Origin: Burkholderiaceae bacterium
Lineage (GTDB): Bacteria > Pseudomonadota > Gammaproteobacteria > Burkholderiales > Burkholderiaceae_A
Direction of reading: 5' to 3'
NCBI GenBank assembly: GCA_018882795.1
Contig: VERJ01000016.1
Span: 1 to 39,274, forward strand
DNA length: 39,274 bases
Shown: one piece after another, positions 495-31,051 of the stretch
Layout: each line of letters begins with the position of its first letter
Numbering within the stretch: position 1 is the stretch's first letter
Position numbers and translations under genes: made by a program
The notes under the pieces: generated by a model
What the model was told of the DNA's origin: nothing
The model's input: only the letters and a program-made list of their open reading frames with translations
The model's database searches: none

Positions 495-3400
495 TCAGAC
501 CTCCGGTGCCTGCAGCATGGAAAGAATGACCTCCGGCAGCAGATTGCCCTGGGCCATCATGGCGCCGGCAGCCTGCTGGCCGATCTGGATGCGCACCAGG
601 CGCGCCATCTCGCTTGCGTAGTCCACATCCTGAAGGCGGGATTTTGTATCGATCAGATTCTCCGACACGCCCTCTAAGTTGTTGATGGCGTATTCCAGTC
701 GCTGCTCCTGAGCGCCAAGGCCAGTCCGAAAACGACTGACCCGATCAATCACCGATTCCACAAAATTCTGCAGCTGAGAAAAATTGGAATCTGATAATGA
801 AGCTTCGGTGTTGTCATCAATTATATCCAGCAGATTGGCCAGATTATCGAAGGCCACCTTGTCGCTGCCGACATTCTGATTGGCGCCAGTGATGCGCACA
901 TCTTTAAACCCCGATATGGATGTCTGCTCTCCGGCACTCGCACTCGCCCCAAGCTGCACGGTGGCGGCTTGCCGCAGACTGCCCACCGACAGCGTCGTGA
1001 CAGGCGACACATAGGCTGAAAAAGAGTCGTCGTTTACCGTAATGACCCGGCTATTTTTTAATGCAAAAGAAAAACCAAGATCATCAAACCGGAATGTCTT
1101 AGAAGCGCCGGGGGCAATCTCCCCGACCGCCAAGCTTTGCGATTTACCAACAATCCCGGTATTGGCCATGGCCGTCACGGTGATCACACCAGGGTTGGCG
1201 ATATCTCGCACAGTAACGGCGATATCATCAATGCCCACCTTAGCGGGCTCCTGCATGGTGATCTGATTGCCCGATACCGTAACCCGCGTGGCAGCGGGAA
1301 ATTCCGGGCTATCGTTGGCGGTGGTGTTATTGGGATAGTCCTGGGCGATCAACCCCGCAAGCCGATTGGCCACACTGGCAGCGTCATCGGTGGACTCGAC
1401 CCGCACTGCATATTCTCGTCCACCAAAGGCAATCTCGACTGACCGGCCCACCGCAAGATCCGCCTGCTGAATAGTAATCACACGATCAGAGCGATCGCGA
1501 TTCTGTGAAGAGACTGAAGTCTCCAGCCCCCCAATGTTGGAACCCTCTACCAGACGATCGGTGATCACATTGCCTGGGGTGATAGTGAAGTACACCTTAT
1601 CGCCCACCTTGGGGGTTCCGGTCAGATTTAACTCAACCCTATCCCCGGTATCCAGAGTCAACCAACCCGAGGCATAAGTGGCTGCCAGCACAGAGTCTCC
1701 ATAAGCGTTTTTAATGGTGTAGTTGAATGCCCCAACGCCTGTAGCCCCGTTGTACTCCAGTAAATAATCGCCCGCAGGCAGACCACCCACCACCGCAAAG
1801 GTGGTGTTGGTCACACCTTCCGGCCGCTCGTAGCTGGCTGTGGTTGTTCCACCACTCACCGCAATGGTCATGTAATCACCCGAAAGCGGACTGCGGGTTG
1901 CAGTAGGGCTTGACTCGTCAACGCCGCGATAACGAAATACTTCCAAGGTTTTTGTGGCGTAGCTCAATACTGTGGATGATCCACCGGCACCCGTGAGGTA
2001 ACCTGATGGTGTTGCACCCTGCGCGATCCAACTCGAACCATTGTAGGCATAAGAATAATTTCCAGACTGCAGTGGCACACCCGACATCGTGCTTGTGCGG
2101 CTGGAGAAGTCGTTGCTACTGGAATTAAAGGTGATGTAATCGTCAGCGCCAAGTCCAGCATTCACGGCAGTGAAATTAACCCGATCCCCTTCTTTGGGAG
2201 TGCCCGAAAAATTCAATGACACCCAATCTTTGCCAGCACCGGTATATAGCGAATTGCCACTCATGTAAGCACCGGCGCCACCACCACTTACTAATGACCA
2301 GGCATTCCCGTTGTAGTAAATCTGATAGCCCCCACCTTCCATGTCATAGGCGCTTCCTGAAACCCCTGTTACACCGACTGATCTCGTGCGTGTTGCGGTA
2401 ATACCACTTGAATCTTCATTCGACGTGAAACTGATGTTGTCGCCTGAATACGAATAGTTTGTTGCCCATGAAACACTGCGCTGCGTATCTAGGCTAAGGG
2501 TATTGGTTGCCTGGTTATAAGATCCTGTAACCCCCGCTGGCTCACCGCTCACGCTCCACGAAGTTCCGCCTAGATAAGAAACGGTATATGTTGCATTGAT
2601 GCCGGTTAAATCTCCTGCACCTACAACGGCGCGGGTGCTGTTATAGATCTGGCCATTTGCCTGGGTCACAGTTGAATCGGGCTCTCCGATTCCAAATTCT
2701 GGCGGGCCAATCCTGAACTGAATGCGATCCCCAGGTTTCGGGGTGCCTGTTAAGGTGACATTGACCGAATTGCCTGGGCTGGTGGTCAACACGGAGCCGT
2801 TAAAAGAAGCGTTGCCCGGCACAGCGCTGGATAAAAACGTCCAAGCACGTGGATCCGTGTAGGCGTAACCGCTATCGTTAAACAGAATGTCATAGTAGCC
2901 GTCGTCTAACCGCCCGCCCACACCCCACACAGCAGCCGTAATACCTTGCGCAGGCCTCACGATCGGGTTTTGGGTCCCCGCAACTGTTTCGCTCACTGTG
3001 AGCTGGATATTGCTCATGCCCATGCCCAGCGCGGAATTGAACTGAATGGCCCCGTTCGATGCCGAGACGGCGGAAGCCCCCGACCCAAAATGCTGACCGA
3101 TTCTGCTGGCAAGCTTTGAGGCAATGGTGGTGCGAGTGTCATCGGTGCCCGCAATCAGTGAGAACTGCGTGAAGTTTTCTGGGTTGCCCACATCCACGGT
3201 GAACTTGCGTCCTGCGATCACATCAAAGTCATTGATGGTGATGAATCGGCTTGCGTTCGATGTAAACGCCACCGGGGATACAGTGGATGCAATCTGCGAT
3301 ACAACATCGGTCTGAAGGGGGCGATGCACTTCATAAGAAAGGTCCGCAATTGTTCGACCAGAGTCGCTCTCTAAAGTAACAATTGATCCCGCACGAACAG

Positions 3401-4628
3401 CATTGGCGGGGTAATCCGCCGCCAGTTGGCGGCGCAGGCCCTCGGCAACGGTTTCCGTAGTGGAATCACTGGCCACAATATAAGCATAGGCCTTGCCGTT
3501 CACGTTAAGGGTGATGCGATTGCCTTCGCCCAGATCCTGTGCGGTGGGAATGATTGTGCGCGCATAGTCGTGGCGGTTAAATGTTTGAGCACCCACAGTC
3601 ACCGCAGTCAGTGGACTGCTGTCCACATTTTTTCCAAAGAATCGGACTGTTCCTGCTGTTGCCACGGCATCGGGCTTGGAAAACTTTCCATCTCTTCCGC
3701 CCAAGCCATCACTGTCAACATCCGCAGCCATGCCCACGGCATTGGCGGCGTTGTATTGGGCTGCCATTCCTGCAGCGATATTGGTGTAGGCCAACACACT
3801 GTTGCCAGCGACCGCCGCGCTTAATCCATCGTTATTTGGAGTGAGGTTCTCTGCAGTGACCGTATAAGTCTGAACTAGCGTGCGATCTGGGTTATCGCCC
3901 TTCACCGTAAAACGAATCTGGTCTCCGGCTTCATAAATGCCAGAGAGCGTAATCACGGCCTCTGAAGTGCCCGATCCTGTGACCGTTGCTGCCTGAGAGT
4001 TTTCGATGCCTTCGGTGCCATCAAGTTTGGTTGTGGCCCGAGACTTCTGATTAGAGATTGCCGTGGGCTTGCTAAACGAAATGGCATAGTCGCCCGCATT
4101 GGCGCTAAACACGTCCAGGTTTTCGACCGTCAATCCATTTAGGATTGATGCGCCTTCTGCCAACTGGGTACGATCAAAAAAAGAGGCCGCAATTGCCGAG
4201 CCCAGAGAGTTCTTCAGTAGTGCGTTGGCGTTATATGCAGCCTGCTCTGCGGTGGCATTGATGCCCGTCCGCAGTGCCGAGATCTCATCGGAAATGGCGC
4301 GCTTTTGATCCAGGGATAAAGATCCATTGCGAGCCTGGGTGGCCAATTCCTTCATGCGACGCAGCATGTCCGTCACCTGGCCAAGCGAGCCATCGGCCGC
4401 CTGCACCATCGAAATCACCTGATGGGCGTTGCGGACACTCTGCCCAAGGCCAGTCACCTGGGAACGAATCTGCTCTGAAATGCCCAGGCCAGCCGCATCA
4501 TCCCCAGCCCGGTTAATCCGCAACCCTGAGGAGAGACGCTCTACGGCGTTGGACAGGGCACTCTGGCCGAGCGCCAACTCGCGCTTGGCGAAAACCGCTG
4601 CCGGAACATGATTTAAAGAAACCGCCAT
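495..4628 (-). CDS. Giant flagellin with repeat-rich insert, 1377 aa
   Basis: This is a filament subunit. Residues 1-170 match the flagellin D0/D1 region (VERLSSGLRINRAGDDAAGLGISEQ) and the last ~130 residues match the C-terminal D1/D0 helices (LEYAINNLEGVSEN, IQIGQQAAGAMMAQ). Ordinary flagellins are 280-550 aa, so about 1000 residues are inserted in the surface D2/D3 region. The insert holds a ~115-aa module beginning near residues 357, 462 and 1049 (R-x-I-x-I-x-x-x-D, then G and a VG-x-x-E pattern). Between the second and third copies lies a ~480-aa block with three GTPKxGD(R/K) motifs near 629, 809 and 1004. No Cys was seen. The ATG at 4628 was chosen because AAGGGGG precedes it by six bases; a GTG seven codons upstream lacks that. 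A sigma-28-type promoter and a leader hairpin precede it. It is paralogous to the 998-aa flagellin. Confidence 0.93.
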   Translation of the reverse strand: MAVSLNHVPAAVFAKRELALGQSALSNAVERLSSGLRINRAGDDAAGLGISEQIRSQVTGLGQSVRNAHQVISMVQAADGSLGQVTDMLRRMKELATQARNGSLSLDQKRAISDEISALRTGINATAEQAAYNANALLKNSLGSAIAASFFDRTQLAEGASILNGLTVENLDVFSANAGDYAISFSKPTAISNQKSRATTKLDGTEGIENSQAATVTGSGTSEAVITLSGIYEAGDQIRFTVKGDNPDRTLVQTYTVTAENLTPNNDGLSAAVAGNSVLAYTNIAAGMAAQYNAANAVGMAADVDSDGLGGRDGKFSKPDAVATAGTVRFFGKNVDSSPLTAVTVGAQTFNRHDYARTIIPTAQDLGEGNRITLNVNGKAYAYIVASDSTTETVAEGLRRQLAADYPANAVRAGSIVTLESDSGRTIADLSYEVHRPLQTDVVSQIASTVSPVAFTSNASRFITINDFDVIAGRKFTVDVGNPENFTQFSLIAGTDDTRTTIASKLASRIGQHFGSGASAVSASNGAIQFNSALGMGMSNIQLTVSETVAGTQNPIVRPAQGITAAVWGVGGRLDDGYYDILFNDSGYAYTDPRAWTFLSSAVPGNASFNGSVLTTSPGNSVNVTLTGTPKPGDRIQFRIGPPEFGIGEPDSTVTQANGQIYNSTRAVVGAGDLTGINATYTVSYLGGTSWSVSGEPAGVTGSYNQATNTLSLDTQRSVSWATNYSYSGDNISFTSNEDSSGITATRTRSVGVTGVSGSAYDMEGGGYQIYYNGNAWSLVSGGGAGAYMSGNSLYTGAGKDWVSLNFSGTPKEGDRVNFTAVNAGLGADDYITFNSSSNDFSSRTSTMSGVPLQSGNYSYAYNGSSWIAQGATPSGYLTGAGGSSTVLSYATKTLEVFRYRGVDESSPTATRSPLSGDYMTIAVSGGTTTASYERPEGVTNTTFAVVGGLPAGDYLLEYNGATGVGAFNYTIKNAYGDSVLAATYASGWLTLDTGDRVELNLTGTPKVGDKVYFTITPGNVITDRLVEGSNIGGLETSVSSQNRDRSDRVITIQQADLAVGRSVEIAFGGREYAVRVESTDDAASVANRLAGLIAQDYPNNTTANDSPEFPAATRVTVSGNQITMQEPAKVGIDDIAVTVRDIANPGVITVTAMANTGIVGKSQSLAVGEIAPGASKTFRFDDLGFSFALKNSRVITVNDDSFSAYVSPVTTLSVGSLRQAATVQLGASASAGEQTSISGFKDVRITGANQNVGSDKVAFDNLANLLDIIDDNTEASLSDSNFSQLQNFVESVIDRVSRFRTGLGAQEQRLEYAINNLEGVSENLIDTKSRLQDVDYASEMARLVRIQIGQQAAGAMMAQGNLLPEVILSMLQAPEV

Positions 4629-4656
4629 GCCTGACCCCCTTCGAGACACATTTGCT

Positions 4657-4682: not shown

Positions 4683-4709
4683 TTACGGAAGAATTGGCTA
4701 TGGCGTTTA
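4683..4709 (-). promoter_or_regulatory. Sigma-28 (FliA) promoter of giant flagellin
   Basis: TAAA, exactly 15 bases, then TTCCGTAA. The classical flagellar sigma-28 promoter is TAAA-N15-GCCGATAA. The same TAAA-N15-nYCCGTAw pattern precedes the other two flagellin genes at the same distance from the start codon, which makes chance unlikely. The predicted transcript start is near 4676, giving a leader of ~48 bases. Confidence 0.8.
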
Positions 4710-5825: not shown

Positions 5826-8822
5826 TTACTTCAAGAGCGCCAAGATCACGTTGGGCATCTGGTTGGCCTGGGCCAACATCGCAGTTGCCGCCTGCTGCAT
5901 GATCTGGGTCTTGGTCAGATTGGCCGTCTCAGCAGCGTAGTCGGTATCCACGATGCGGGAGTTGGCCGCCGTTAAGTTCTCCGACTGGGCCTGGATGTTG
6001 GCAATCGCAAACTCGATCCGGTTTTGCTGGCCACCAAAGTAGCTGCGGAAGTCCGACACCATGGTGATCGCATCCTCGATGCGGTTTTCCAGAGTGGCGA
6101 AGTTGGCTTCCGACAGAGACTCAGTCGTATTAGCCGAGATGGTCGTCAAGGTCTCATGGATCTTATCGAACACTTCCTTCTCAGCGCCCACGTTCTGGTT
6201 CTGACCTGTGACACGGATATCTTTAAAGCCATCCAGAATCACGTTATCCCGTGTACCAGCACCCACCTGGAACAATGCCTCACCATCCATCGCAGCTTCA
6301 ACGGCCAGGGTATTGACCTTGGGCGTGAAAGCTTCGAACGAAGCAGCGTTGACCGTAGTCGAGCGGCTGTTGTTTAGGGTGAACGATACGCCAAGGTTGT
6401 CGAAGTCAAACGACTTCGATGCACCCGCGGCAATCGTGCCCACATCAATGCTCTGGCTCGTGCCACCAATACTTGTATCGTTATTGGCCGTGATCGTGAT
6501 CTTGCCAGGGTCCGTGATCTTCTTGACAGATACAGAGATATCCTCAAGACCAAGCTCGCTACCAGCACCGATGGTTATTACATTCCCAGTGTTGTAAACC
6601 CCGGAATTAACGCGGCGCACTACTGCGTCTCCCGCAGTAGAAGCTAAGCTCAAATTTACTGCTGCACTAGCATTAAAAGTAACTGTTGTAGAAGTGGCTG
6701 CTGTAGTTGTTAATCCAGTCGCTAAGGCGCCGGAGTAATCACCATACGATGCACCCGCACCTGAGGTAGCGGCGGCGCCAAGCCCTGACCAAGCCGCTGC
6801 AACTTCCGCTGCAGTAAGGTTTCGACGTGCTGTAAATGTTAGCCCTGCTATTGATACAGAATCACCGGCCGACATACCGGTGCCAAATGTAGCTGTAGCG
6901 CTTCCCGCGGCACTAAATTTTCCAGCTGCAAAGTTAGATACGCTTACAAACGTCGCAGTAGACGAAGATACTGTTCCGGCAACCCTAGCGTAATCGTCAT
7001 CTATGAGACTCGAAAGCCTGTAAGCGACATCTGTAGCCGAGTCACTGGCCCCAACCTTAACGGCGTATTCTTTTTGACCGACCTGCACAGAAACTACGTT
7101 TCCAGGTGTTAAATCAAACTGATTGATAGTGATCGTGCGATCAGCTCGCGCAGTGTTTTTAGCAGTCACACGAGACGATGCCGAAACATCTGCCCCTTCC
7201 ACCATTTCATTGAATGTCAAACTAATATCTGACATTCCCAGCGGTGCAGTACTTCCGGTAACGGTAATTACATGATCATTGACCCCGGCACTTGCGCCAA
7301 CAGCCGTGCCACCATGAGTCGCATTCATCAAAGTGGCCAATCGGGAGGCAACCGTAACCTTGGTGTCAGACGCCCCAACAACTGTAGAAAACTCCGTAAA
7401 GTACTCCGGATTTCCAACTCGAATGGTTGCCTTACGGCCCTCTACAATGTCGAAGTCATTTAAAGTGATGGTGCGATTCGCAGTCGTTGACGTGAGACTA
7501 GGAGCAGATACGGTTGACGCCTGATTTGTAACAGCATTCCCATCCGCTAATCTAACCACACGCAAACTAATATCAGCAGTGCCTAGCGCGAGAGCAGCAG
7601 CCAATTTAATCTGGCCAGTGTTATCTGTACTCCCTGTATTGTCAACCTGCAATACACCATTCGCACCCGCAGCATAATCTTTAATTAACAATGTTTCAAA
7701 ATCTTTTGCAACTTGATTTCGAATCGAGTCAGCCGAACTTTTGTATCCCGCGACTACAGAATATTCTTTAGCACCAATCGTTAAAACAAACTTATTACCT
7801 TCAACAGCATCCTCCGAATTAATATAAATTCGACGCTCTGCGAGGTTAAGTGAGTCACTTGCAACGCTGACATTCTGGCCTGCCGCTGCGCTAGTCACGT
7901 TCAAGGTGGTGGTAAGAGAGACGTTGTCACTCGAGCCCCCAATATAAATCTTATTGTCGACAGCGGTAATACCAAGAGCCTTTCCAGTCGCTGCCTGCGA
8001 GGCCAAATTTAATGCGGCGGCAAGACCAGAAGCAATGAAATTATTCGCACCATTGACGTCAACTGATGTATTGTCGTCATCCGTAGCAGAGACCGTGTAA
8101 CTAGCGGTAATTGTCTGACCCCCAGTGATCGACACGGTAGCCGAGACTACGTCGTTTTGAGCCCAAGCATTGCTTGTACGAGCAATCGTAATTACATTAA
8201 GATTTTGTCCACCAAAGTCTCCAGCGGCCTCAGAGACTTGATTGGCGATCGGGGTCTGGGTGCCAGTAGTGATGGTGTAGGTACCAGCATTGGTGTTCTT
8301 CACGGCCAGGTTTGAGACCGAGATGCCATCTAAGAGCGATGCGCCGTTGACCAACTTGGTGGCATCGGTTGCAGCGGGAACCGCCACCTGTGTACGCAGG
8401 GCGTTCTTCAGAAGTGAAAGATCGTTAAAGGTCGTGCGTTCGGCAATCGAGTTGATTTCGTTTTTCAGAGCGACCAGCTCATCAGAGATAAAGGAACGCT
8501 GGGTGGTCGACAGAGAGTCGTTACGGGCCTGAACCGAGAGCTCCTTCATCCGCTGCAGGATCGAAGAGACTTCGGATAACGAACCTTCAGCCGTCTGCAC
8601 CATGGAGATCGCATCATTGGCGTTACGCAGACCCTGGTTCAAGGAGGTCACCTGGCTTTTGATCTTCTCGGAGATCCCCAGACCAGCTGCGTCATCCTTG
8701 GCGCGATTAATCCGCAGGCCAGAAGACAGGCGCTCTACCGAGGTAGACAGTGCGTTCTGGGCCCCAGACAGATTCTTCTGCGCGTACAGCGAGGCCATGT
8801 TGGTGTTAATTACTGATGCCAT
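5826..8822 (-). CDS. fliC: Large flagellin, 998 aa
   Basis: This is a filament subunit with canonical ends: MASVINTNMASLYAQKNL at the start, RLSSGLRINRAKDDAAGLGI at 31-50 and a C-terminus ending TAMLAQANQMPNVILALLK. The exposed middle (about 175-870) is enlarged. Three tandem modules of about 115 residues begin near 330, 450 and 562, each with R-x-I-x-I-N then a G and VG/IG-x-x-E(Y/F). The third is interrupted near 620-745 by a strand-rich segment with GDSVSIAGLTFTARRNLTAA, a pattern recalled from giant bacterial surface proteins. The middle looks less GC-rich than the ends by eye. The ATG at 8822 has AAGGAG upstream. It leads a flagellin-flaG operon with a sigma-28-type promoter. The canonical termini suggest this is the main flagellin; that is an inference. 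Confidence 0.95.
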   Translation of the reverse strand: MASVINTNMASLYAQKNLSGAQNALSTSVERLSSGLRINRAKDDAAGLGISEKIKSQVTSLNQGLRNANDAISMVQTAEGSLSEVSSILQRMKELSVQARNDSLSTTQRSFISDELVALKNEINSIAERTTFNDLSLLKNALRTQVAVPAATDATKLVNGASLLDGISVSNLAVKNTNAGTYTITTGTQTPIANQVSEAAGDFGGQNLNVITIARTSNAWAQNDVVSATVSITGGQTITASYTVSATDDDNTSVDVNGANNFIASGLAAALNLASQAATGKALGITAVDNKIYIGGSSDNVSLTTTLNVTSAAAGQNVSVASDSLNLAERRIYINSEDAVEGNKFVLTIGAKEYSVVAGYKSSADSIRNQVAKDFETLLIKDYAAGANGVLQVDNTGSTDNTGQIKLAAALALGTADISLRVVRLADGNAVTNQASTVSAPSLTSTTANRTITLNDFDIVEGRKATIRVGNPEYFTEFSTVVGASDTKVTVASRLATLMNATHGGTAVGASAGVNDHVITVTGSTAPLGMSDISLTFNEMVEGADVSASSRVTAKNTARADRTITINQFDLTPGNVVSVQVGQKEYAVKVGASDSATDVAYRLSSLIDDDYARVAGTVSSSTATFVSVSNFAAGKFSAAGSATATFGTGMSAGDSVSIAGLTFTARRNLTAAEVAAAWSGLGAAATSGAGASYGDYSGALATGLTTTAATSTTVTFNASAAVNLSLASTAGDAVVRRVNSGVYNTGNVITIGAGSELGLEDISVSVKKITDPGKITITANNDTSIGGTSQSIDVGTIAAGASKSFDFDNLGVSFTLNNSRSTTVNAASFEAFTPKVNTLAVEAAMDGEALFQVGAGTRDNVILDGFKDIRVTGQNQNVGAEKEVFDKIHETLTTISANTTESLSEANFATLENRIEDAITMVSDFRSYFGGQQNRIEFAIANIQAQSENLTAANSRIVDTDYAAETANLTKTQIMQQAATAMLAQANQMPNVILALLK

Positions 8823-8876: not shown

Positions 8877-8903
8877 ATACGGACATGCCCCGCCGATGGT
8901 TTA
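8877..8903 (-). promoter_or_regulatory. Sigma-28 (FliA) promoter of 998-aa flagellin
   Basis: TAAA, 15 bases, GTCCGTAT on the minus strand. This matches the shared TAAA-N15-nYCCGTAw pattern of the window's three flagellin genes. The predicted transcript start is near 8870, giving a ~48-base leader. Confidence 0.8.
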
Positions 8904-9018: not shown

Positions 9019-9264
9019 ATGCGAACTACCCTTGATATCGACGACCCGATCCTGAAGGATCTAAAGGAGCTGCAGGCCCAAGAGGGCAAAAGCCTGGGCA
9101 GGCTTGCCTCTGACCTGCTGGCTCAGGCGATCAGCGAAAAACGCAAGGCTCACACCCTTGTCTCGGAACCGGCTTTCCACTGGCACGCCCAGTCAATGAC
9201 GCCACGGCTGGACCTGGCGGATAAAGATGCGCTGCTGGACGCCATGGACGATCCAAAAAGATGA
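9019..9264 (+). CDS. Ribbon-helix-helix antitoxin, VapB type
   Basis: This 81-aa protein opens with the MRTTLDIDDPILKDLKEL pattern of ribbon-helix-helix antitoxins: a DNA-binding strand (residues 1-8) followed by two helices. The C-terminal half (HTLVSEPAFHWHA to the end) would be the toxin-binding tail. The stop overlaps the start of the PIN-domain gene by four bases (ATGA), a typical antitoxin-toxin coupling. The likely role is to bind and neutralise the downstream PIN protein and to repress the operon. Confidence 0.85.
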   Translation: MRTTLDIDDPILKDLKELQAQEGKSLGRLASDLLAQAISEKRKAHTLVSEPAFHWHAQSMTPRLDLADKDALLDAMDDPKR

Positions 9265-9698
9265 GCTTTGCTATTGAGACCAATGTCTTGCTCTACGCAA
9301 CGGATGCGTCAAGCCCAAGGCATATCCCCGCTGCCAATTTTTTAAAAAATTGTGCGGAATCGGGTGGTCTGTTCTGTCTGGCATGGCCAACGATCATGGC
9401 TTATCTGCGGATTGCAACCCACCCGAAGATCTTCTCGGCGCCGCTTGCACCGCAGCAAGCCGAGCAAAATATCCAGCAATTATTAACACTCAGACATTGC
9501 AGGGTCATCGATAGCGCGGTAATAGACTTCTGGCAAATCTACACAGTGCTTTCGCGTGAATATCACCCACGGGGCAACCTAGTGCCTGACCTTCAGCTAG
9601 CAGCCATACTGAAAGCCAATGGCATTAAGCGCCTCTACACTTGCGATCGCGACTTTCGTCGATTTGAGTTTTTAGAAGTGATTGATCCCACTCGATAG
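9261..9698 (+). CDS. PIN-domain toxin, VapC type, altered active site
   Basis: This 145-aa PIN-domain protein is of the type paired with RHH antitoxins; VapC toxins are Mg-dependent RNases. The N-terminal strand reads FAIETNVLLYA, where family members have DTN, so the first catalytic Asp is Glu. The motif usually written WPxxxEFLRxxTHP is WPTIMAYLRIATHP here, so the conserved Glu is Ala. The third and fourth acidic sites are present in LVPDLQLAA and TCDRDFRRF. Two of the four metal ligands therefore differ, and the enzyme may be weak or inactive. It is translationally coupled to the antitoxin gene. Confidence 0.85.
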   Translation: MSFAIETNVLLYATDASSPRHIPAANFLKNCAESGGLFCLAWPTIMAYLRIATHPKIFSAPLAPQQAEQNIQQLLTLRHCRVIDSAVIDFWQIYTVLSREYHPRGNLVPDLQLAAILKANGIKRLYTCDRDFRRFEFLEVIDPTR

Positions 9699-9756: not shown

Positions 9757-9783
9757 TAAACAACTAAACCCGCCTGCCCGTAA
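9757..9783 (+). promoter_or_regulatory. Sigma-28 (FliA) promoter of lectin-flagellin
   Basis: TAAA, 15 bases, GCCCGTAA, the third instance of the window's flagellin promoter pattern and the closest of the three to GCCGATAA. The predicted transcript start is near 9790 and the leader ~53 bases. Confidence 0.8.
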
Positions 9784-9794
9784 GTTCACTCGTG

Positions 9795-9813: not shown

Positions 9814-9842
9814 GCTTTGGAGAGTTCAGGAGTGGCTGGCAG

Positions 9843-12311
9843 ATGCAATCTTTAAGTACCAACATCGCTTCGCTTCAGGCGCAGCGCTCACTTGCGACGA
9901 GCCAGAGCTATCTGTCGGAGTCTGTTGAGCGGCTGTCCAGTGGGTTGCGGATTAACCGGGCTAAAGATGATGCGGCAGGCCTTGGGATCTCTCAGGAGCT
10001 TCAGCGCCAGACCCGATCATTTGCCGTAGCCTCACGCAATGCCAATGATGCGATCTCCATGGTGCAGACGGCCGAGGGGGCACTTCAGTCGGTCTCTGAC
10101 ATCCTGATCCGCATGAAGGAGCTCACCACCCAGGGGGCCAATGAGTCGCTCTCTAAGGAGCAGCGCTCCTTTATCACCGCAGAAATTGCCCAACTGCGCA
10201 AAGAGATCAACGCGGTGGCCGAGCGCACCACCTTCAATAACACCAAGCTTCTGACCGGAGACTTCTCCGAGGCCGTACGAGGCGAGTTCATCAATGCCAC
10301 CAAGCTGGATGGAAGCAATAACTCGGTGCTGGGCACCTCCACCATCCGACTGGGTGTCGAGTCCGCCGCAAGCGGCGATAACACCAAATCCCGGTTCTCC
10401 TTTGCCGACATCCAGGTGGATGCTGCGGACGAAGGCAAGTACTCCTTAAGCAACAGTGGGGCCGTGCTGACACTGTCCCGCACGGTGGGTAATAAGACTG
10501 AGACCCAATCCATCACCATCGTCACCGGTACTGCCGGAAAAGATCAGGTCCGGCTCAACGACACCCTCAATGACACGATGACCTTTAACTTCACCGACTT
10601 TGGCGTCTCCATCGTCGTGAAAAATGAGCGCATTGGCAGCAGCGATCGCTCGGTCTCAGAGGTGGCCACCAAGATCTCGGCCATGGGCATCACACCCAAC
10701 GCCGACTATCAAAACAAAGGCTGGAAAGCCGTGTCCGGCGCAGACTGGGCCACCGGAGCAGGAACTCTGAAGGCGGTGATCACCTCGACCGCTGGCCAAG
10801 TCAGAACCACAGCCAATGGCAGTGTTGCGGCGGTTACCGGCTATGCGGCCCTGGGCACCTCAAGCTATAACGCCACAACAGGCCAGTATGAGATGGCCTT
10901 CAAAGGCACCGCCGCCCAGTTAAACACCGCCCTGGCCTCCCTCCAAGTCAACAACACCACAGGTTTGGGTGAAATCGCTATCGATGTCTTGCCCGAGGCA
11001 ATGTCAGTCTTCACCAACCCCACCACAGGCGCAACGTCGTACTACGAGGTGGTGAACTCAGGAAGCATTGTGTGGAGTTCGGCAAGATCTGCAGCGTCAT
11101 CTCGAACATTTAATGGACTGACCGGTTACCTCGCGAATTTAAGCAGCACAAGCGAGAGTAACTTCATACAGTCAAAGCTTAGCAACGACGGCTGGATCGG
11201 AGCGAGCGACCAAGGTACCGAAGGCACTTGGAAATGGATGGATGGTCCCGAGGCAGGTTTAACTTTTTGGGTAGCCAACACAGGGAATGTGTCTGGCGGT
11301 GCCGGACAGGTCACCACGGCGTACTCAAACTGGGCAGGCGGAGAGCCTAACGATGCGGGGGCGACAGGTGAAGACTATGCCTATGCGATCGGCGGCGGAA
11401 ACTGGAATGACTACTCCGCAACCAATGCTGGCCCTACTGCATACATCGTCGAATACGGCGGCGTGAAGGGCATCAACGCCAACACCTCCAAGACGCTGCT
11501 GATTGGCACGCCGGGGTATATCAATGTTGGGGATGCGGTCGAGATTGAGGCGGTGGCCACCACTGGAGTTGGGGCCAATAGTGCGGACACGGGTATTTAT
11601 CGCTTGACCGCTGATACGGCAGCCAAGACCGTGACACTAAAGCGCTTTGATGTCGATGGCGAAACCTTGATGGGATCCGAGACCATCTCCAAGCCCGACG
11701 GGCTGGGTGCAGGCCGCTACACAACCCTGGCCTTTGAGGGTCTTGGTGTGTCGCTCACCATCAGCAACAGCGCAGACCGCGCCATCACCCTGGGGGATCT
11801 TGAGTCGGGACTAGAGAAAGACCTGACGGTGGCCACCAGCCGGATGGCCTCCCTGATCGGCGAAGACGGCCCCAAGTTCCAGACCGGTGTGGCCTCCCGT
11901 AATGATATGGCCGTGGGTGCATTTAGAGACATGCGTCTGGGCAAAAATACCGACGCTGGGCACGGTGAGCTCTTTAACGAGGTCAACGACCTGATCCTGT
12001 CCATGGCAGGAAGCGCCGACCCGGCAACGGCCAGCTTCCAGCGGTTAGAGAACAAAGTCGAAGACATGATCGATGTGGTCTCGGCCCAGCGATCAGACTT
12101 TGGCGCCATCCAGAACCGGCTCACCGCCACGATCAACAACATCACCGAGCAGTACGCCAACCTGACTGCCGCCAAGAGCCAGATCGAAGACACCGACTTT
12201 GCCTGGGAAACCGCACGGCTCACCAAACTGCAGATCGGCCAACAAGCCGCCACCGCCATGCTCGCCCAGGCCAATGCCATCCCCAACGTCATCATGGCAC
12301 TGATCGAGTAA
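9843..12311 (+). CDS. Flagellin with inserted C-type-lectin-like domain, 822 aa
   Basis: The ends are flagellin: MQSLSTNIASLQAQRSLATS and RLSSGLRINRAKDDAAGLGI at the N-terminus, and LQIGQQAATAMLAQANAIPN near the C-terminus. Residues ~300-390 form a strand-rich module (FKGTAAQLNTALASLQVNN) like those in bacterial surface proteins. Residues ~400-540 are a C-type-lectin-like domain: YYEVVNSGSIVWSSARSAA, LTGYLANLSSTSESNFIQ, GWIGASD, WKWMDGPEAG, SNWAGGEPNDAG, GNWNDY, AYIVEY. Candidate calcium/sugar ligands are E501, N503, E510, N522 and D523 (EPN plus WND), spaced almost as in mannose-binding lectins. No Cys is present, so the usual disulfides are absent. The ATG at 9843 has CAGGAG upstream; a GTG 17 codons earlier lies within the leader hairpin. 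No convincing terminator follows. Confidence 0.93.
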   Translation: MQSLSTNIASLQAQRSLATSQSYLSESVERLSSGLRINRAKDDAAGLGISQELQRQTRSFAVASRNANDAISMVQTAEGALQSVSDILIRMKELTTQGANESLSKEQRSFITAEIAQLRKEINAVAERTTFNNTKLLTGDFSEAVRGEFINATKLDGSNNSVLGTSTIRLGVESAASGDNTKSRFSFADIQVDAADEGKYSLSNSGAVLTLSRTVGNKTETQSITIVTGTAGKDQVRLNDTLNDTMTFNFTDFGVSIVVKNERIGSSDRSVSEVATKISAMGITPNADYQNKGWKAVSGADWATGAGTLKAVITSTAGQVRTTANGSVAAVTGYAALGTSSYNATTGQYEMAFKGTAAQLNTALASLQVNNTTGLGEIAIDVLPEAMSVFTNPTTGATSYYEVVNSGSIVWSSARSAASSRTFNGLTGYLANLSSTSESNFIQSKLSNDGWIGASDQGTEGTWKWMDGPEAGLTFWVANTGNVSGGAGQVTTAYSNWAGGEPNDAGATGEDYAYAIGGGNWNDYSATNAGPTAYIVEYGGVKGINANTSKTLLIGTPGYINVGDAVEIEAVATTGVGANSADTGIYRLTADTAAKTVTLKRFDVDGETLMGSETISKPDGLGAGRYTTLAFEGLGVSLTISNSADRAITLGDLESGLEKDLTVATSRMASLIGEDGPKFQTGVASRNDMAVGAFRDMRLGKNTDAGHGELFNEVNDLILSMAGSADPATASFQRLENKVEDMIDVVSAQRSDFGAIQNRLTATINNITEQYANLTAAKSQIEDTDFAWETARLTKLQIGQQAATAMLAQANAIPNVIMALIE

Positions 12312-14371: not shown

Positions 14372-14746
14372 ATGCACCTGATTGATACTTCTGTTTGGAT
14401 CCAACACTTCCGCTACAGCGATGACAGACTAAGAACTGCCCTCGAAGAGAACCGCGCCATGGGGCATGACTGGATTACCGGAGAACTCGCCTGCGGACAC
14501 CTTCAACAGCGGAAAGCAACACTAGAGTTCCTTAGTCGACTCCCGAAAGCTCCAGTCATCAGTAGCCATGAATTGATTTTCTTTATTAATGAGCATCGAC
14601 TGTTTGGGGTCGGCCTGGGGTTCGTCGATCTTCAATTGCTTGCGGCTTGCAGGATTGCAAACTGCGGACTCTGGACAAATGACAAAGCGCTAATCAACGT
14701 TGCAAAAAATCTAAAAATCGGCGTTCTCAGTTCTTTACCCCACTAG
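14372..14746 (+). CDS. vapC: VapC-type PIN-domain RNase toxin, 124 aa
   Basis: This is a PIN-domain toxin with all expected acidic residues: D5 in LIDTSVW, the Glu in TGELACG, the Asp in GFVDLQLLAA and the Asp in LWTNDKAL. VapC proteins cut specific RNAs (tRNA or rRNA) with a divalent metal and are neutralised by VapB. Unlike the other PIN protein of the window, its active site looks intact. Its 3' end overlaps the end of the convergent GltB-like gene by 12 bases. Confidence 0.9.
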   Translation: MHLIDTSVWIQHFRYSDDRLRTALEENRAMGHDWITGELACGHLQQRKATLEFLSRLPKAPVISSHELIFFINEHRLFGVGLGFVDLQLLAACRIANCGLWTNDKALINVAKNLKIGVLSSLPH

Positions 14747-24274: not shown

Positions 24275-25027
24275 CTACTGAATGAGCACCTCAACAACGC
24301 CGGACCGAACTACCCGGCCCGTAACCTGCTGACCATCGGGCAACCGCACCCGAATACTATCGCCAATCGCGCCGGCAGAGACTGCCTTGCCTTCACCAAT
24401 GGCCGAGAAGCCTTTCCCTTGCACCTGCAGACGGACCGCCTCTCCTACCTTGATTACGGCTTCCTCCTTCAACATGTTTAGTGTCAGGATCGCCCCCTGC
24501 TGGAGAGGTTGGCTCAAGACTCTACCCACTGCGTCATCAATCGATCTGGCTGTATCAGATCTGGTGCGGGTTATATCGGTAGTAACTACTGACAAATCAT
24601 CTGGCTTCAGCCGAATTCCCTGGGGTAAATATTTGCTGGCAGTTAATTGGGGACCGAACACTCTGGTCTGAACCGGCACACTTACCGCCCAAAAAGGTTG
24701 CGGGCAGCGGACCATGACGCTAAAACCGCCCCAGGGCCGATCCTTGCCGGAGATGACAGTCTCTAGCGCTTGCGGGCACTCACCAAGCCTCTGGCGGACC
24801 CGGCCGACCCGAACCTCGACCCGCATGTCTGCAAGGCTGGAATGGGTCCGGACCATCTTGGTAATTTTTTCCACGATGGCAGGGGGAAGATCCTCCTCCA
24901 CGCTGGGTGGGGTGGCCGACTCGGACTGAGAAGGCAGCAGCGCCCGTTGGGCCCTGGCGGTCTGGGCGACCAGGACCAGGCCCGCCAACACCACAATCAG
25001 GATCAGGAATTTGCGGGAACGATCCAT
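24275..25027 (-). CDS. flgA: FlgA, flagellar P-ring assembly chaperone
   Basis: FlgA is a periplasmic chaperone for P-ring (FlgI) assembly. The 250-aa protein has a signal peptide (MDRSRKFLILIVVLAGLVLV, then AQTARA) and the conserved C-terminal domain: YLPQGIRLKPDDLSVVTTDI (SAF-like), VLSQPLQQGAILTLNMLKEE, VIKVGEAVRLQVQGKGFSAI, AGAIGDSIRVRLPDGQQVTG, RVVRSGVVEVL. Length is normal. The gene overlaps the upstream CheA-like gene by 25 bases, so it belongs to that operon; in related bacteria flgA is usually divergent from flgB, which is not found here. Confidence 0.95.
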   Translation of the reverse strand: MDRSRKFLILIVVLAGLVLVAQTARAQRALLPSQSESATPPSVEEDLPPAIVEKITKMVRTHSSLADMRVEVRVGRVRQRLGECPQALETVISGKDRPWGGFSVMVRCPQPFWAVSVPVQTRVFGPQLTASKYLPQGIRLKPDDLSVVTTDITRTRSDTARSIDDAVGRVLSQPLQQGAILTLNMLKEEAVIKVGEAVRLQVQGKGFSAIGEGKAVSAGAIGDSIRVRLPDGQQVTGRVVRSGVVEVLIQ

Positions 25028-26388
25028 ACGACCGGCTCGGGCTCACCCGCAACCAGGACGCCCGCCACCCAGTCGGGGGCCTCGACCGACGGGGGCAGCA
25101 AAAAGGCATTGGCCACCTCAAAAGCGCCAATCTCGTCGGCATACAGGGTGAACATCTCGGAGCCCGACTTGATACGCAGGGCAAGACGTGCTGTTTGATC
25201 AACAGCGCCCAGCAGATCCTCCGCTGAATCCGGACGATCTTTGATGGTCTCGGCCTTAAGGAACTGGGCCCAGCTCACTGCATAAGAAAGGCCATTGCGT
25301 TTGAAGGGCACCACACGCAGCCGGGATAGGCTCGAGGGCAGGATCAGGCGCAGGCCGTCGGTCAGGGGATCAATGCGGCCAGCGAGTATCTGCACGATAC
25401 GGCTGGCACGCTCAAGCGCCTCATTGTCGGGACTGATATCGATCAGATCGACAAACAATGTCTGCTGCTGATAGGCGCCACGAATCGCGCTCGGCTGCGG
25501 CAGCCCGCTCATGGCCGAAATCATGTAATCGATCACATCGGCATCGGCCCGCAGGCCGCTGAGCTCAATACTGCGGGCCATCCCCACCATCCGACGCTGT
25601 AGCGGCTCCTGGGCCAGGGCCATGATCCAGTTGGCGTGATCTGTGAGTCGCACCCGGGCCTGATGGGCCAGCTCGGGAGAGGCAGATTTGGCTATTTCGT
25701 GATCCAGGGCCTGAATGTGCTTAAACGCATACAGGCGGTCATGCAGGGTGATCTTCGGTGAGAGCAGCGTATCGGGGCCCGAGAGTTCACTTGATAAGGG
25801 CACACGTGCCAACGGTGACTCGGTTTCCTGACCCGGGAAGTACATGAGCGTGGTGACCTCTTCGAGATCAATCATGCCTTGCGATTCCGGCTGCTCACTG
25901 GAACTGGATTGCGTGACCGCAAACGAGTTCGTTTGCTCTTGGGCACCAGCATCCGCCTCCGGGGCTAGGTCAGATGCAGGCGCTGGGCGCGAAGAATCAG
26001 CCGTTGATTGAAATGCCAACGAGGAAAAGTCAGCTGGCTGCTCGCCGAAAAGCGACACCGCCCGGGCGAGATTGCCAATGAGCTGATCCTGATTGGGGAA
26101 GCTGCGCTGCTCATCGGCAGTGTTCAGGGCCTCAATGGCCTCGCCCACCAGATCAAGCAGCTCATCGGTAAAGATATCCATGCCGGGACGACCAGCAGCC
26201 AGATGCCGGGAAATCACCAGGGCGATCTCAGCGTGCCGCGGAAGATTCACGCTTTGCAGGGCATCTGAGAGATCGCGGGCATGCAGGGATGCCTGAGTCA
26301 TGCCATCGGGGCCCTGGGCGATGCCCTGTCGCAGGCCGTCCATGGCCCGGTTCAGGTCTGCCAGAAACAGATTGATCAAATCGTTCAC
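25003..26388 (-). CDS. CheA-like scaffold protein lacking kinase motifs
   Basis: This 461-aa protein has the outline of a degenerate CheA/ChpA. Residues 1-65 form a helical bundle like an HPt domain with a His in LHARDLSDALQSVNLPRHAE (H36), but the KG after the usual His is replaced. Residues 120-200 are a disordered acidic/Ser linker. At 324-352 ALERASRIVQILAGRID and DGLRLILPSSL resemble the end of the CheA ATPase domain (VRSxIxxLGGRI...LRLPLTLA). Residues 353-458 fit the CheW-like regulatory domain (VVPFKRNGLSYAVSWAQFLK; YADEIGAFEV...WVAGVLVAGEP). No N box or DxGxG ATP motifs were seen. A GTG start overlaps the upstream gene by four bases. It lies with CheW-like and receptor-like genes in the flgA operon. 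Confidence 0.6.
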   Translation of the reverse strand: MNDLINLFLADLNRAMDGLRQGIAQGPDGMTQASLHARDLSDALQSVNLPRHAEIALVISRHLAAGRPGMDIFTDELLDLVGEAIEALNTADEQRSFPNQDQLIGNLARAVSLFGEQPADFSSLAFQSTADSSRPAPASDLAPEADAGAQEQTNSFAVTQSSSSEQPESQGMIDLEEVTTLMYFPGQETESPLARVPLSSELSGPDTLLSPKITLHDRLYAFKHIQALDHEIAKSASPELAHQARVRLTDHANWIMALAQEPLQRRMVGMARSIELSGLRADADVIDYMISAMSGLPQPSAIRGAYQQQTLFVDLIDISPDNEALERASRIVQILAGRIDPLTDGLRLILPSSLSRLRVVPFKRNGLSYAVSWAQFLKAETIKDRPDSAEDLLGAVDQTARLALRIKSGSEMFTLYADEIGAFEVANAFLLPPSVEAPDWVAGVLVAGEPEPVVWIVPANS

Positions 26389-27974
26389 GCTGGCTCCCGC
26401 TTGCCTGCAACATCCAAGAGATCTTCCACATCGGTCACGTTCTTGCGCGCCGATGCGGCCGGCGTGGTGCTGGAGGCGACATTCAGAAGGCGGTCAATAT
26501 CGCCCAATGCTTCGTTTAAGCGATCAAACTGCCGTGTCCACTGCGAGGCGATCAGCAGCAAGGCCTCGGCATCGCGCTTAAGCACCACGGCATCGTGCTG
26601 CAAAGCAGAGCCCGGATCGGCTGACATATGCTTGGTCACTGCGGCATCCAACTCTTGTTGCAGGGTGCGGGCGATCGAATCCACATGCTCGATGTTCTCG
26701 GCCAGCTTGTCACCCGCATCCACCACCTGGATCTCCGCATTGGTCTGCGAGATCACCAATGAGAGCTTGATACTTTGCTCCTTCAGCAGAGCGAAATCCC
26801 GCTGAATTTCTCGGGCGCGAAACTGGGAGCCAAGCAACACTTTGAGCGCGGGATCCTCAGCCGTGATTTCCTTGGGTGTTTCCAGCGACTGCACGGTGGC
26901 ACCGAGTTTTTTGATCGCGGCAATCAATTGTCGGCCCAGATCAGAGATCTGCTTGGCTGCCAGCTGCACATAGGGCAGGCTCTCATTGGCTTTTTGCAAG
27001 GCCTCGAAACGATTGGCATTGGTGAGCGCGGAATCCACTTCGGTGAGATCAATCGTGGTCAGCAGCCGCCGATCACAACGCAACACCTCAAACACGCTAA
27101 GCAGCAGGGCGATAAAGCCAATCGCGCCGAAGAGTCGCGACACAACCCCGGTATCCAACGCAAAGCCCACGCCGGTCTCGACGGGGGCCTGATCCCCACC
27201 GCTAGCCATCGCGCCGGCGAGCCGATTGAGCTCAGCAGAAATTGCAACCGCTGCAAAGGTAACGGACTCCCAGTCCTTGGCCCGACGCATCACGGTCAGG
27301 GCATCGATGCGGGCCACGATCGCCTTACGGCGCTCGTTCATCTCAGGGGCAAGCTTCGGATCATTGAGCTTTTCTCGGGCCTCCATCAGGGCCTTGAGCG
27401 ATACCTGAAAACTCTTGAGACTCTCGATTGGTTTTTTCGCCTGAACATTAAGAAAATCCACACGCAGTTTTTCCAACACATCAGAAATACCGACAAAGGG
27501 AGACCCAGGGGGAATGACGCCCTTATAGAGCACCCCACCCTTGGCGAGCAGCAGTTCGAGCTCACGGTTGACGGTCTGCGACAACTCACGCACGCTCACA
27601 AGCCGCTTCTGCAATTCTTTGAGCGCTGTAATTTGTTTTTGTACAAGCGCCGCCTCGGGGACAGAAAGCCCCGCCAGTCGCGACTGAATGCTGTCAAGCG
27701 ACGTATAGAAATCGGTGTCGAAGTGGTCGGCCGCCGATAGGCGGGCCCGAATCTGTTCTGCAGCCTCTTGTGGTGTGCCTGGAGTGATCGGCAAATTGGT
27801 CGCAGCAGCAGGCGCACGGGCGCCCGCCTTGGGCTCCGGAGCTGGCGTCGGTACTGCCACAGGTTCGGGCAGAAAAGACATCACGACAAAACAGGCGATG
27901 GATACCAGCAGCAAAACGGCTGATATCAGTCGGGATTTGAAGATGACGCGGCTGACTGCGGCTGAATCACTCAT
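26385..27974 (-). CDS. Receptor-topology membrane protein, 529 aa
   Basis: The architecture matches a chemoreceptor: a short basic N-terminus, a transmembrane helix at ~14-36 (RLISAVLLLVSIACFVVMSF), a ~245-residue helical periplasmic region, a second transmembrane helix (~279-302, LFGAIGFIALLLSVFEVLRC) and a ~225-residue coiled-coil cytoplasmic part. The cytoplasmic part has IKLSLVISQTNAEIQVVDAG and ENIEHVDSIARTLQQELD, loosely like a receptor signalling hairpin, but the highly conserved chemoreceptor tip (ALNAAIEAARAGExGRGFA) is absent. No methylation pattern was identified. The ATG at 27974 overlaps the CheW-like gene by eight bases; upstream ATGs lie inside that gene. The adjacency to CheW- and CheA-like genes is the main argument for a receptor role. 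Confidence 0.6.
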   Translation of the reverse strand: MSDSAAVSRVIFKSRLISAVLLLVSIACFVVMSFLPEPVAVPTPAPEPKAGARAPAAATNLPITPGTPQEAAEQIRARLSAADHFDTDFYTSLDSIQSRLAGLSVPEAALVQKQITALKELQKRLVSVRELSQTVNRELELLLAKGGVLYKGVIPPGSPFVGISDVLEKLRVDFLNVQAKKPIESLKSFQVSLKALMEAREKLNDPKLAPEMNERRKAIVARIDALTVMRRAKDWESVTFAAVAISAELNRLAGAMASGGDQAPVETGVGFALDTGVVSRLFGAIGFIALLLSVFEVLRCDRRLLTTIDLTEVDSALTNANRFEALQKANESLPYVQLAAKQISDLGRQLIAAIKKLGATVQSLETPKEITAEDPALKVLLGSQFRAREIQRDFALLKEQSIKLSLVISQTNAEIQVVDAGDKLAENIEHVDSIARTLQQELDAAVTKHMSADPGSALQHDAVVLKRDAEALLLIASQWTRQFDRLNEALGDIDRLLNVASSTTPAASARKNVTDVEDLLDVAGKREPA

Positions 27975-28461
27975 GGGCATCACCATCCATGCCTTCCATT
28001 GCATTGGCGCGCAGACGAACCACCGTCCAGAAATGATCCAGATGCGCGATTTCTTTTTTGTTGAAGGCCTCGGCCTCGGGGAGTTCTGGTGTTAAACGAA
28101 AAGGGCCGCTGGCATGGTCCACGCGAATGCCAACACTGGAGAGTGAATCGCCGTTAAAGACGACGACCCAGGGGGGTGCCTTGGCATCGGCATCAGGATA
28201 CCGATCATGCTCGTTGGACTCCAGGGGGCCACGCACCGAAGTAAACAGACGGCTTGGCGGCAGCAGAAACACTGGCGCACCCTCGTGCACCAGCAGCCCA
28301 CGAATATTCAGAAACGGGCCCTGCCCGGCCTGCACACGCGCTGCCTCACGCCCGTCAGCGGGCTGATAAAAGACCGTGGCCACGCTGTAGAAATCAATGG
28401 CATAACGATGGCCACCTACTTCCAGGCCAAACCAGCGATAGGGACGGGTAAGCGTGTTCAC
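27967..28461 (-). CDS. CheW-like adaptor protein, 164 aa
   Basis: CheW-family proteins link receptors to the CheA kinase. This one follows the fold order: RWFGLEVGGHRYAIDFYSVA, FLNIRGLLVHEGAPVFLLPP, VVVFNGDSLSSVGIRVDHA, then PFRLTPELPEAEAFNKKEIA. The RGxxxxxGxxVxLxxL type of motif is present in altered form (IRGLLVHEGAPVFLLPPSRL). It is soluble and of normal CheW length. The GTG start directly follows the stop of the PDZ gene, and its 3' end overlaps the receptor-like gene by eight bases. It is close to the PilI type by eye, but divergent. Confidence 0.65.
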   Translation of the reverse strand: MNTLTRPYRWFGLEVGGHRYAIDFYSVATVFYQPADGREAARVQAGQGPFLNIRGLLVHEGAPVFLLPPSRLFTSVRGPLESNEHDRYPDADAKAPPWVVVFNGDSLSSVGIRVDHASGPFRLTPELPEAEAFNKKEIAHLDHFWTVVRLRANAMEGMDGDAHE

Positions 28462-29427
28462 TCAGTCTTCCCCCATCAGTTTTTCGCGGTTGTGAAACCA
28501 GAACGCCACGAAAAAGAGTGCTAGGGCAGCGATGAGCCCAATAATGGCATCGCCAAAACTGCCCAAGGCGGCCAGCTGACCAGCAGTCGCGCTGCGCACC
28601 CTTTCCACATGCTGCTCAATGGCCACCATAAAGGCATCGTGATGCCAGGACAGGGCCTGATCTATGCGGATAAAGCCCGGGTCCCCTTCCACCAGATCAC
28701 GCTGCGAATCGATATAAGAGAGCAGCTCGTGGGCGATCACGGCTAGGCTCTGCTGATACTGACGACGCCACTCGGGGGGCACGAGCAGCATAAAACGGGT
28801 GTCAAACTGGGCCGCGAGCGCCGCCGTCTGGGACTTGCCCACCACGTTGAGGCCCTTGGGCACATTAAAGAGTAAACCGCTGTTTTCTGCATTCACACGC
28901 TCGCCTGCTGGGGCAGCCAAATTGGCTGCAAAGAGCTTGCCCTGCCGACGGATCACCAGCCGCACGGTCTGCTCGCCACGCTGATCCAGCATGTCATACA
29001 CATCGAGCACCGATTTCACATCGGCGCCATTGACGCTCACCACTTCATCGCCCGACCGGATACCGATGCGATCTGCCATACCACCAAAGACAACACCAGA
29101 GAGCACAGGCGCAACTTTTTTCAACCGGTCACTGGCGCGTCCGTTCTCAAACTCGGCCACCCAGGCAAAAATCTGAGCCACCGAAGCATCTTCAGCTGCC
29201 TTTTCCGATGATGGCGCGCCAACAATCTTCGGCGCAATCAGCTGCTCTAAACGCAAGGCTTTTTTGAATTGTTCAAACGTGGGGGCGTTGAGTGCCTGAG
29301 CCGTGAAGCGATGTCCGGCCGAGGAAATCTGAATGCCGACATAGGCAAGCCATATGCCGGTAAGCACCACGAATCCGAAGGCGACCCAGACCAGCCAAAA
29401 CGACAGACCTCGCGTATTCACATCCAT
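28462..29427 (-). CDS. PDZ-domain inner-membrane protein, 321 aa
   Basis: An N-terminal transmembrane helix at ~9-31 (FWLVWVAFGFVVLTGIWLAY) and a C-terminal one at ~290-311 (SFGDAIIGLIAALALFFVAF) frame a ~255-residue region that should be periplasmic. Residues ~105-170 are a PDZ domain: VLSGVVFGGMADRIGIRSGD, EVVSVNGADVKSVLDVYDML, TVRLVIRRQGKLFAANL. No protease catalytic motif was found, so it is more likely a binding or scaffold protein. It is encoded between the coiled-coil membrane protein and the CheW-like protein in the flgA operon. The ligand is unknown. Confidence 0.75.
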   Translation of the reverse strand: MDVNTRGLSFWLVWVAFGFVVLTGIWLAYVGIQISSAGHRFTAQALNAPTFEQFKKALRLEQLIAPKIVGAPSSEKAAEDASVAQIFAWVAEFENGRASDRLKKVAPVLSGVVFGGMADRIGIRSGDEVVSVNGADVKSVLDVYDMLDQRGEQTVRLVIRRQGKLFAANLAAPAGERVNAENSGLLFNVPKGLNVVGKSQTAALAAQFDTRFMLLVPPEWRRQYQQSLAVIAHELLSYIDSQRDLVEGDPGFIRIDQALSWHHDAFMVAIEQHVERVRSATAGQLAALGSFGDAIIGLIAALALFFVAFWFHNREKLMGED

Positions 29428-29440
29428 GGGTTAATCAGCT

Positions 29441-30271
29441 TCATGTTGTTGAGGAGGAAATGCCATCCGATTCGGCATTGAGTGAGAATTTCTCTTTCAG
29501 CTGCTGCACATCGCGATGCTCGGCCAAAAGACTGACCTCACGATGACGAACATCCATCTTCGCCCGACAAGCCAGAAAAGTCTGAATCCAGGGGCCCGCC
29601 TTCATGGAGATCACCGCATCGGCAATCAAGTACTGGCCCCGCTGATCCGGCCGCACCCGCACAGTCACCAGCTGTGAGTCGGTCTGATCGAAAAGACTGA
29701 GCTCAATGAACGACAGTCGACTGTAGCGATGGTGCGAACCCACCAGCAGAAACGACTGGCCCTCAAGCGTGAAATAGATTTCATGCCCGGGCACCACCTG
29801 CACGGTCTCCACGACATCAATCTGGGTGATGCCGACCTTGTTGTGCCAATCCATGTCGGCCTTCTGTGCTTCACGCGATTTGCGATTGAAAAACCGCATG
29901 CCTTCATAGAGTTCATACAGCGTGATGGGCACCCGGTTTTGCCGGGCAAGATTTTTAAGCGCCTCGGTCTTGCTCTGCACCTCCTCGCGCTCGACAGCGA
30001 GTTTTTCTTCCAGACTGCGGATGTCTTCCTTGAGCTGGGTCTGGAGGTTTTCAATGCCCTTGAGCGCCTCACCCCAGACGACATCGATCTCGGAGGAGTC
30101 TTCAGGATTCACCCCAGCCATGGATTTCTCGATGATGTCTTTACGCTCGGCCGCCTTTTCTTTTCTGCGGCGTGCGTCGCGGGCAGCCACCACGGCCAGA
30201 AGAACGGCCAGAGCCACGCAGACCAGGGCAATCCAAAGCCCGGGCCGGATTGAGGACACCGAGTCAACCAT
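29441..30271 (-). CDS. Membrane-anchored coiled-coil protein, 276 aa
   Basis: Residues ~10-30 form one transmembrane helix (LWIALVCVALAVLLAVVAA) followed by a basic stretch (RDARRRKEKAAERK) that should place the rest in the cytoplasm. Residues ~60-115 form a coiled coil (LKEDIRSLEEKLAVEREEVQ), and ~120-255 a strand-rich domain (YELYEGMRFFNRKSREAQKA, EIYFTLEGQSFLLVGSHHRY). No family was recognised. The ATG at 30271 sits inside the end of the preceding gene (8-base overlap, ATGGTTGA), and the gap to the PDZ gene is 13 bases, so it is part of the same operon. Confidence 0.65.
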   Translation of the reverse strand: MVDSVSSIRPGLWIALVCVALAVLLAVVAARDARRRKEKAAERKDIIEKSMAGVNPEDSSEIDVVWGEALKGIENLQTQLKEDIRSLEEKLAVEREEVQSKTEALKNLARQNRVPITLYELYEGMRFFNRKSREAQKADMDWHNKVGITQIDVVETVQVVPGHEIYFTLEGQSFLLVGSHHRYSRLSFIELSLFDQTDSQLVTVRVRPDQRGQYLIADAVISMKAGPWIQTFLACRAKMDVRHREVSLLAEHRDVQQLKEKFSLNAESDGISSSTT

Positions 30272-31028: not shown

Positions 31029-31033
31029 GGGCG

Positions 31034-31045
31034 AAGTATATACTT
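31034..31045. promoter_or_regulatory. Palindromic divergent promoter core, AAGTATATACTT
   Basis: This 12-bp perfect palindrome lies in the 23-base gap between two divergent start codons (31028 minus, 31052 plus). It reads TATACT on both strands, a good -10 hexamer, and each copy ends about seven bases before the respective ATG. Transcripts would then start at or next to the start codons. No clear -35 element is visible on either side, so this is inference. Confidence 0.5.
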
Positions 31046-31051
31046 TGCCGC

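Follow-up and report, generated by a model that had tools for sequence, protein, structure and literature searches.

The lectin-bearing flagellin and its flagellar neighbourhood

The window, that is, the whole stretch of 39,274 nucleotides that was analysed, carries three flagellin genes. The one under study encodes a protein of 822 amino acids in which a C-type lectin domain lies between the two conserved flagellin ends; the other two encode large companion flagellins. The features of the locus are listed below, with residues numbered from the ATG at 9843.

495..4649 (- strand): companion giant flagellin, 1384 aa (family match)
4683..4709 (- strand): promoter motif TAAA-N15-GCCCGTAA, before the 1384-aa flagellin gene
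5826..8822 (- strand): companion flagellin, 998 aa (family match)
8877..8903 (- strand): promoter motif TAAA-N15-GCCCGTAA, before the 998-aa flagellin gene
9757..9783 (+ strand): sigma28-like promoter motif TAAA-N15-GCCCGTAA, before the lectin-flagellin gene
9828..9832 (+ strand): AGGAG, ribosome-binding-site-like, 10 nt 5' of the ATG
9843..12311 (+ strand): lectin-bearing flagellin gene, 822 aa; ATG start, in-frame alternative GTG at 9792
9855..10262 (+ strand): Flagellin_N, filament core D0/D1, residues 5-140 (Pfam, 4e-40; long helices in the full-length model)
10389..10646 (+ strand): beta-rich D2-like segment 5' of the insert, residues 183-268 (predicted strands)
10731..11033 (+ strand): strand-rich module, partner of the lectin within the cassette, residues 297-397 (shares homology, together with the lectin, with adhesins and autotransporters from many phyla)
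11034..11477 (+ strand): C-type lectin domain, residues 398-545 (Pfam, phmmer, AlphaFold, fold matches)
11343..11351 (+ strand): EPN motif, E501-P502-N503 (translation and cassette alignment)
11370..11372 (+ strand): predicted calcium-site ligand E510 (E in 90 of 93 aligned cassettes)
11403..11411 (+ strand): WND motif, W521-N522-D523 (translation)
11538..11792 (+ strand): beta-rich D2-like segment 3' of the insert, residues 566-650 (full-length model)
12054..12302 (+ strand): Flagellin_C, filament core, residues 738-820 (Pfam, 1e-22)

The GTG at 9792 is unlikely to be the start codon, because the sigma28-like motif and the AGGAG are placed for an initiation at the ATG. The flagellin ends proposed in the preliminary description were recovered by both Pfam families, with helices predicted at either end. 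The full-length AlphaFold model, of modest confidence (pLDDT 72, pTM 0.41), shows these helical ends, the two beta-rich segments and, in the middle, the cassette, as expected for an outermost domain; its best match in a fold search is a Geovibrio filament structure. The 3' beta-rich segment contains an F-x-x-LGVS element common to the companion flagellins, and the two segments are weakly similar to each other. An internal duplication of this flanking element was considered and set aside as weakly supported: the cross-match has an E-value of 0.0024, and shuffled sequences scored as well in 235 of 2000 cases for the window protein and in 18 of 2000 for its ortholog in strain LSUCC0115 (see below).

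The window also contains two FlaG genes, FlhA, FlgA, an FlhF-like SRP54-type GTPase and a sigma-70-family factor with regions 2, 3 and 4, probably FliA. No further filament flagellin beyond the three in the window was found in the genome, nor a second Lectin_C domain; a fourth, weak flagellin match on another contig is probably FlgL. The middles of the 1384- and 998-aa flagellins match no Pfam family, and related members of the bacterial family have flagellin open frames of up to about 1,900 codons.

Exactly three copies of the pattern TAAA-N15-NYCCGTAW are present in the window, where 0.02 would be expected, and each of the three flagellin genes is preceded by one of them. This significance is inflated, because the pattern was defined from the same three sites. 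Genome-wide, it has six matches versus three for a reversed control pattern. In LSUCC0115 and in a congener, one-mismatch copies stand ahead of a flagellin ORF. Of the three remaining genome-wide matches, one (L126, contig C35) lies before a small lipoprotein-like gene, and the gene after it resembles flagellar FlgO in sequence.

A PIN-domain toxin-like gene (9261-9698) and, ahead of it, a short ORF resembling a cognate antitoxin gene lie between the divergent flagellin genes (region 9019-9698), and a second PIN gene is found at 14372-14746. Upstream of flgA, the minus strand carries a run of tightly spaced ORFs (25003-31079) of 461, 539, 164, 321, 290 and 271 aa, among which just the 321-aa one has a Pfam/NCBIfam match (PDZ).

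The module-lectin cassette

A C-type-lectin pattern, including GWIGASD, EPN and WND, had been noticed by eye. The Lectin_C profile matches residues 426-525 (E = 1.8e-6; 29.0 bits against the Pfam cut-off of 22.6), and in a phmmer search of solved structures, GWIGASD, EPN..GED and WND align to CD23, while the stretch from EPN to WND matches mannose-binding proteins. These matches become stronger when a profile of 54 cassettes replaces the single sequence; the PDB sequence matches listed for the lectin region include no solved flagellin. The expected ligands E501, N503, E510, N522 and D523, with P502, occur at exactly the positions first given for them, and their offsets (0, 2, 9, 21, 22) were reproduced from the translation.

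When residues 290-550 were modelled by AlphaFold with the cassette alignment as input, a C-type-lectin fold was predicted (mean pLDDT 87.3, pTM 0.82). The top Foldseek matches of this model are C-type lectin domains of animals. Structural alignment with VIA-align gave, against CL-K1, Z 18.5 and 1.5 Å over 123 residues; against mannobiose-bound MBP-C, the values were Z 18.3 and 1.2 Å over 115 residues. This close superposition on sugar-bound lectins, and the conservation of the site residues in an ortholog and in 85 of 93 cassettes (see below), lend indirect support to a predicted clustering of the ligand side chains. The lectin domain is real: it has a predicted C-type lectin fold with the complete set of primary calcium/sugar-site residues.

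Homology to many relatives extends over the strand-rich module (about 297-397) as well as the lectin (398-545). The module, previously taken as separate, is thus the habitual partner of the lectin, the two forming one cassette (297-545), and they were therefore probably recruited together from an adhesin. In a scan of one genome per species over 84,980 species, the cassette has at least hundreds of relatives, among them a 3083-aa Rhodoferax protein (L043), autotransporter-like SAR11 proteins (L045, L048) and proteins of Bacteroidota and Verrucomicrobia; an archaeal protein matches the lectin plus the last part of the module. Several large proteins, mostly from Bacteroidota (L049, L054, L070, L094), contain two to five or more module-lectin cassettes in tandem.

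In an alignment of 93 cassettes, which takes in the window protein and its LSUCC0115 ortholog, the complete EPN/E/ND set is present in 85 and cysteine is absent from 68. An intact site and missing disulfides are thus normal for this bacterial group. The 822-aa protein indeed has no cysteine, as had been observed, but the worry that the fold would have to hold without its usual disulfides is unfounded, since most relatives lack cysteine as well: the conserved disulfides of the animal type are absent and do not define the bacterial C-type lectin group.

Two other readings were rejected. For a phage or plasmid source of the lectin, only distant lectin matches were obtained (identity at most 39%), and for an Mtd-like target of a diversity-generating retroelement, no reverse transcriptase (RVT_1) match was found in the genome.

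An ortholog in LSUCC0115 and the distribution of the architecture

A search for other lectin-bearing flagellins, suggested at the outset, gave one among the matches listed. This closest of the listed relatives (L042) is encoded by Burkholderiales bacterium LSUCC0115, of the same family as the window. It has 898 aa, with the same order of flagellin end, module, lectin and flagellin end. A misassembly or chance fusion can be rejected, because the same architecture recurs in this genome, which comes from an independent isolate. LSUCC0115 is a cultured isolate of the MWH-UniPo clade from the coastal Gulf of Mexico, with flagellar genes, and is available on request, so that predictions can be tested on native filaments (PMC6952679).

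The LSUCC0115 gene is the middle one of three consecutive flagellin genes on the same strand and starts 14 nt behind the first of the trio. Identity between the two lectin-flagellins is 63% in the module, 59% in the lectin and 59% in the N core, compared with 41-42% in the rest of the middle and 43% in the C core. All six EPN/E/ND residues are kept in the ortholog despite nearby loop insertions of 38, 15 and 11 residues. The middle of a flagellin is usually its fastest-changing part, whereas the cassette is conserved like the N core, which suggests that it is kept for a function. With just two orthologs in the data, constraint on the site is inseparable from constraint on the fold; for the fast change of flagellin middle regions, see also PMC7018530.

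In a tree of the N domains, the two lectin-flagellins group together (support 91/79, below the star threshold of the tool), and the clade around the pair also contains their companion flagellins. This is consistent with one insertion before the split of the two genera, followed by later losses.

Within the family, the lectin-flagellin is present in two of 26 genomes, while FlhA is present in 22. Among the lectin-cassette matches in 399 genomes of the order, 369 of the class and 398 of the phylum, no third lectin-flagellin was found; this sampling amounts to about 1,150 Pseudomonadota, in which divergent lectins could be missed. LSUCC0115 is also the sole further case among the best 80 matches listed from the 84,980 species, the scan that alone covers other phyla. 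The architecture is rare; outside Pseudomonadota, this applies to the matches listed in that scan.

No flagellin match was found in three genomes of the same genus (G001, G003 and G005). FlhA is kept in G003 and G005 and missing from the single-contig G001, suggesting a loss of flagella or of recognisable flagellins in these congeners.

Proposed function of the lectin

Several known systems resemble parts of this protein. Flagellinolysins also carry a functional domain in the hypervariable region, between intact flagellin ends, and display it on the surface along the filament (PMC5595980, PMC7643111). Their insert, however, is a gluzincin metallopeptidase, whereas a C-type lectin cassette is found here; the translation contains no HExxH and has no peptidase family match in Pfam. 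Large bacterial adhesins possess the same two-domain unit and EPN/E/ND set (45% identity over about 240 residues to the Rhodoferax protein L043), but in giant repeat adhesins and autotransporters instead of a flagellin. The carbohydrate-recognition domains of mannose-binding protein and other collectins have the same fold and primary calcium/sugar-site residues. In comparison, the present lectin is bacterial, lies within a flagellin, lacks disulfides, has a spacing between N503 and E510 that is one residue longer, and its sugar specificity is predicted. Giant flagellins, described in Bermanella and Oleibacter, likewise have a large central insert between the flagellin ends, with a similar hint of a duplicated beta element flanking it; they are defined by a length above 1,000 aa, which the neighbour at 495-4649 exceeds and the lectin-flagellin does not (PMC6248924).

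No flagellin with a C-type lectin domain was found in the literature compared. This includes the main text of the paper that reports 61 flagellin insert domains, which is silent on lectins (PMC5595980), and the description of giant flagellins, which makes no mention of lectin domains (PMC6248924). Flagellins with functional outer domains are already known, and the lectin cassette appears to be a variant for which no report was found in this literature.

The best explanation, which we consider moderately probable, is a filament flagellin in which a ready-made adhesin cassette has taken the place of the outer region or been added to it, so that the filament would attach to glycans in a calcium-dependent manner. 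Presentation of the lectin on the filament is plausible because of the intact flagellin ends, the shared promoter motif and the synteny with other flagellins. In the most likely reading, the protein is co-expressed as a filament subunit and displays a calcium-dependent lectin; its assembly, sugar binding and role in adhesion are predicted. The EPN motif would, by analogy with animal lectins, favour mannose, glucose, GlcNAc or fucose-type sugars, bound via calcium.

The ligand is the point at which other explanations diverge. The EPN motif and the calcium ligands are also conserved in some CTLDs that bind mainly proteins, and so they are no proof of a sugar ligand. CD23, the closest match both in sequence and by Foldseek, binds IgE through its lectin domain, as would fit a ligand that is not a sugar, such as a protein, carried by another cell or a particle. 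This is improbable in our estimation: VIA-align ranks the sugar-binding collectins as high or higher, and the matched cow CD23 structure is itself a sugar complex. We give similarly little credit to a lectin directed at the cell's own glycans, on glycosylated flagellins or a surface polysaccharide, that would bundle or sheathe filaments or join sister cells. The neighbouring large flagellins could be glycosylated, but the family-matched genes within the window include none for flagellin glycosylation.

A purely structural role, in which the cassette is an outer domain that thickens, stiffens or, by contacts between outer domains, locks the filament and calcium stabilizes its fold with no sugar ligand, seems unlikely, if less so. 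The companion flagellins are very large (998 and 1384 aa), and outer domains that are giant or that dimerise are known to change the thickness and the motility of filaments (PMC6248924, PMC8931119). Such a mechanical role would not, however, need a complete EPN/E/ND set, and this set is kept in the ortholog in spite of loops of 11, 15 and 38 residues. Finally, as three flagellins are encoded, the lectin-flagellin need not be the main subunit, and it might be a minor flagellin, or one that does not assemble and leaves the cell as a monomer via the flagellar channel. Its D0/D1 ends are, on the contrary, intact and give the strongest family matches, and the LSUCC0115 gene is the middle one of a flagellin trio; we regard this as very improbable.

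For the favoured glycan-binding filament, established flagellar biology would have the unfolded chain exported via the flagellar channel and its D0/D1 ends polymerise, either by themselves or together with the flagellins of 998 and 1384 aa. The cassette would fold outside the cell, where dissolved calcium would fill the site. EPN could then bind sugars with equatorial 3- and 4-hydroxyls (the mannose, glucose, GlcNAc or fucose types) in glycans of algae, particles or bacteria. Binding at a single site may be weak, but as multivalent display adds up such contacts over many copies, the result would be an avid, firm adhesion.

Stickiness is often reported for flagella in which no binding domain has been defined. 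That they act as adhesins is documented (PMC8931119), and a lectin domain with an intact calcium site would, if the proposed role is true, give flagellar adhesion a precise and mutable molecular basis. The range of domain-carrying flagellins would then reach beyond an enzyme to a glycan receptor. Tentatively, the flagellum of these planktonic bacteria could be a lectin-studded, multivalent and calcium-dependent glycan-binding filament that serves both swimming and the capture of algal, particle or cell surfaces. For a coastal-water bacterium, the swimming filament may thus double as a sugar-gripping fibre.
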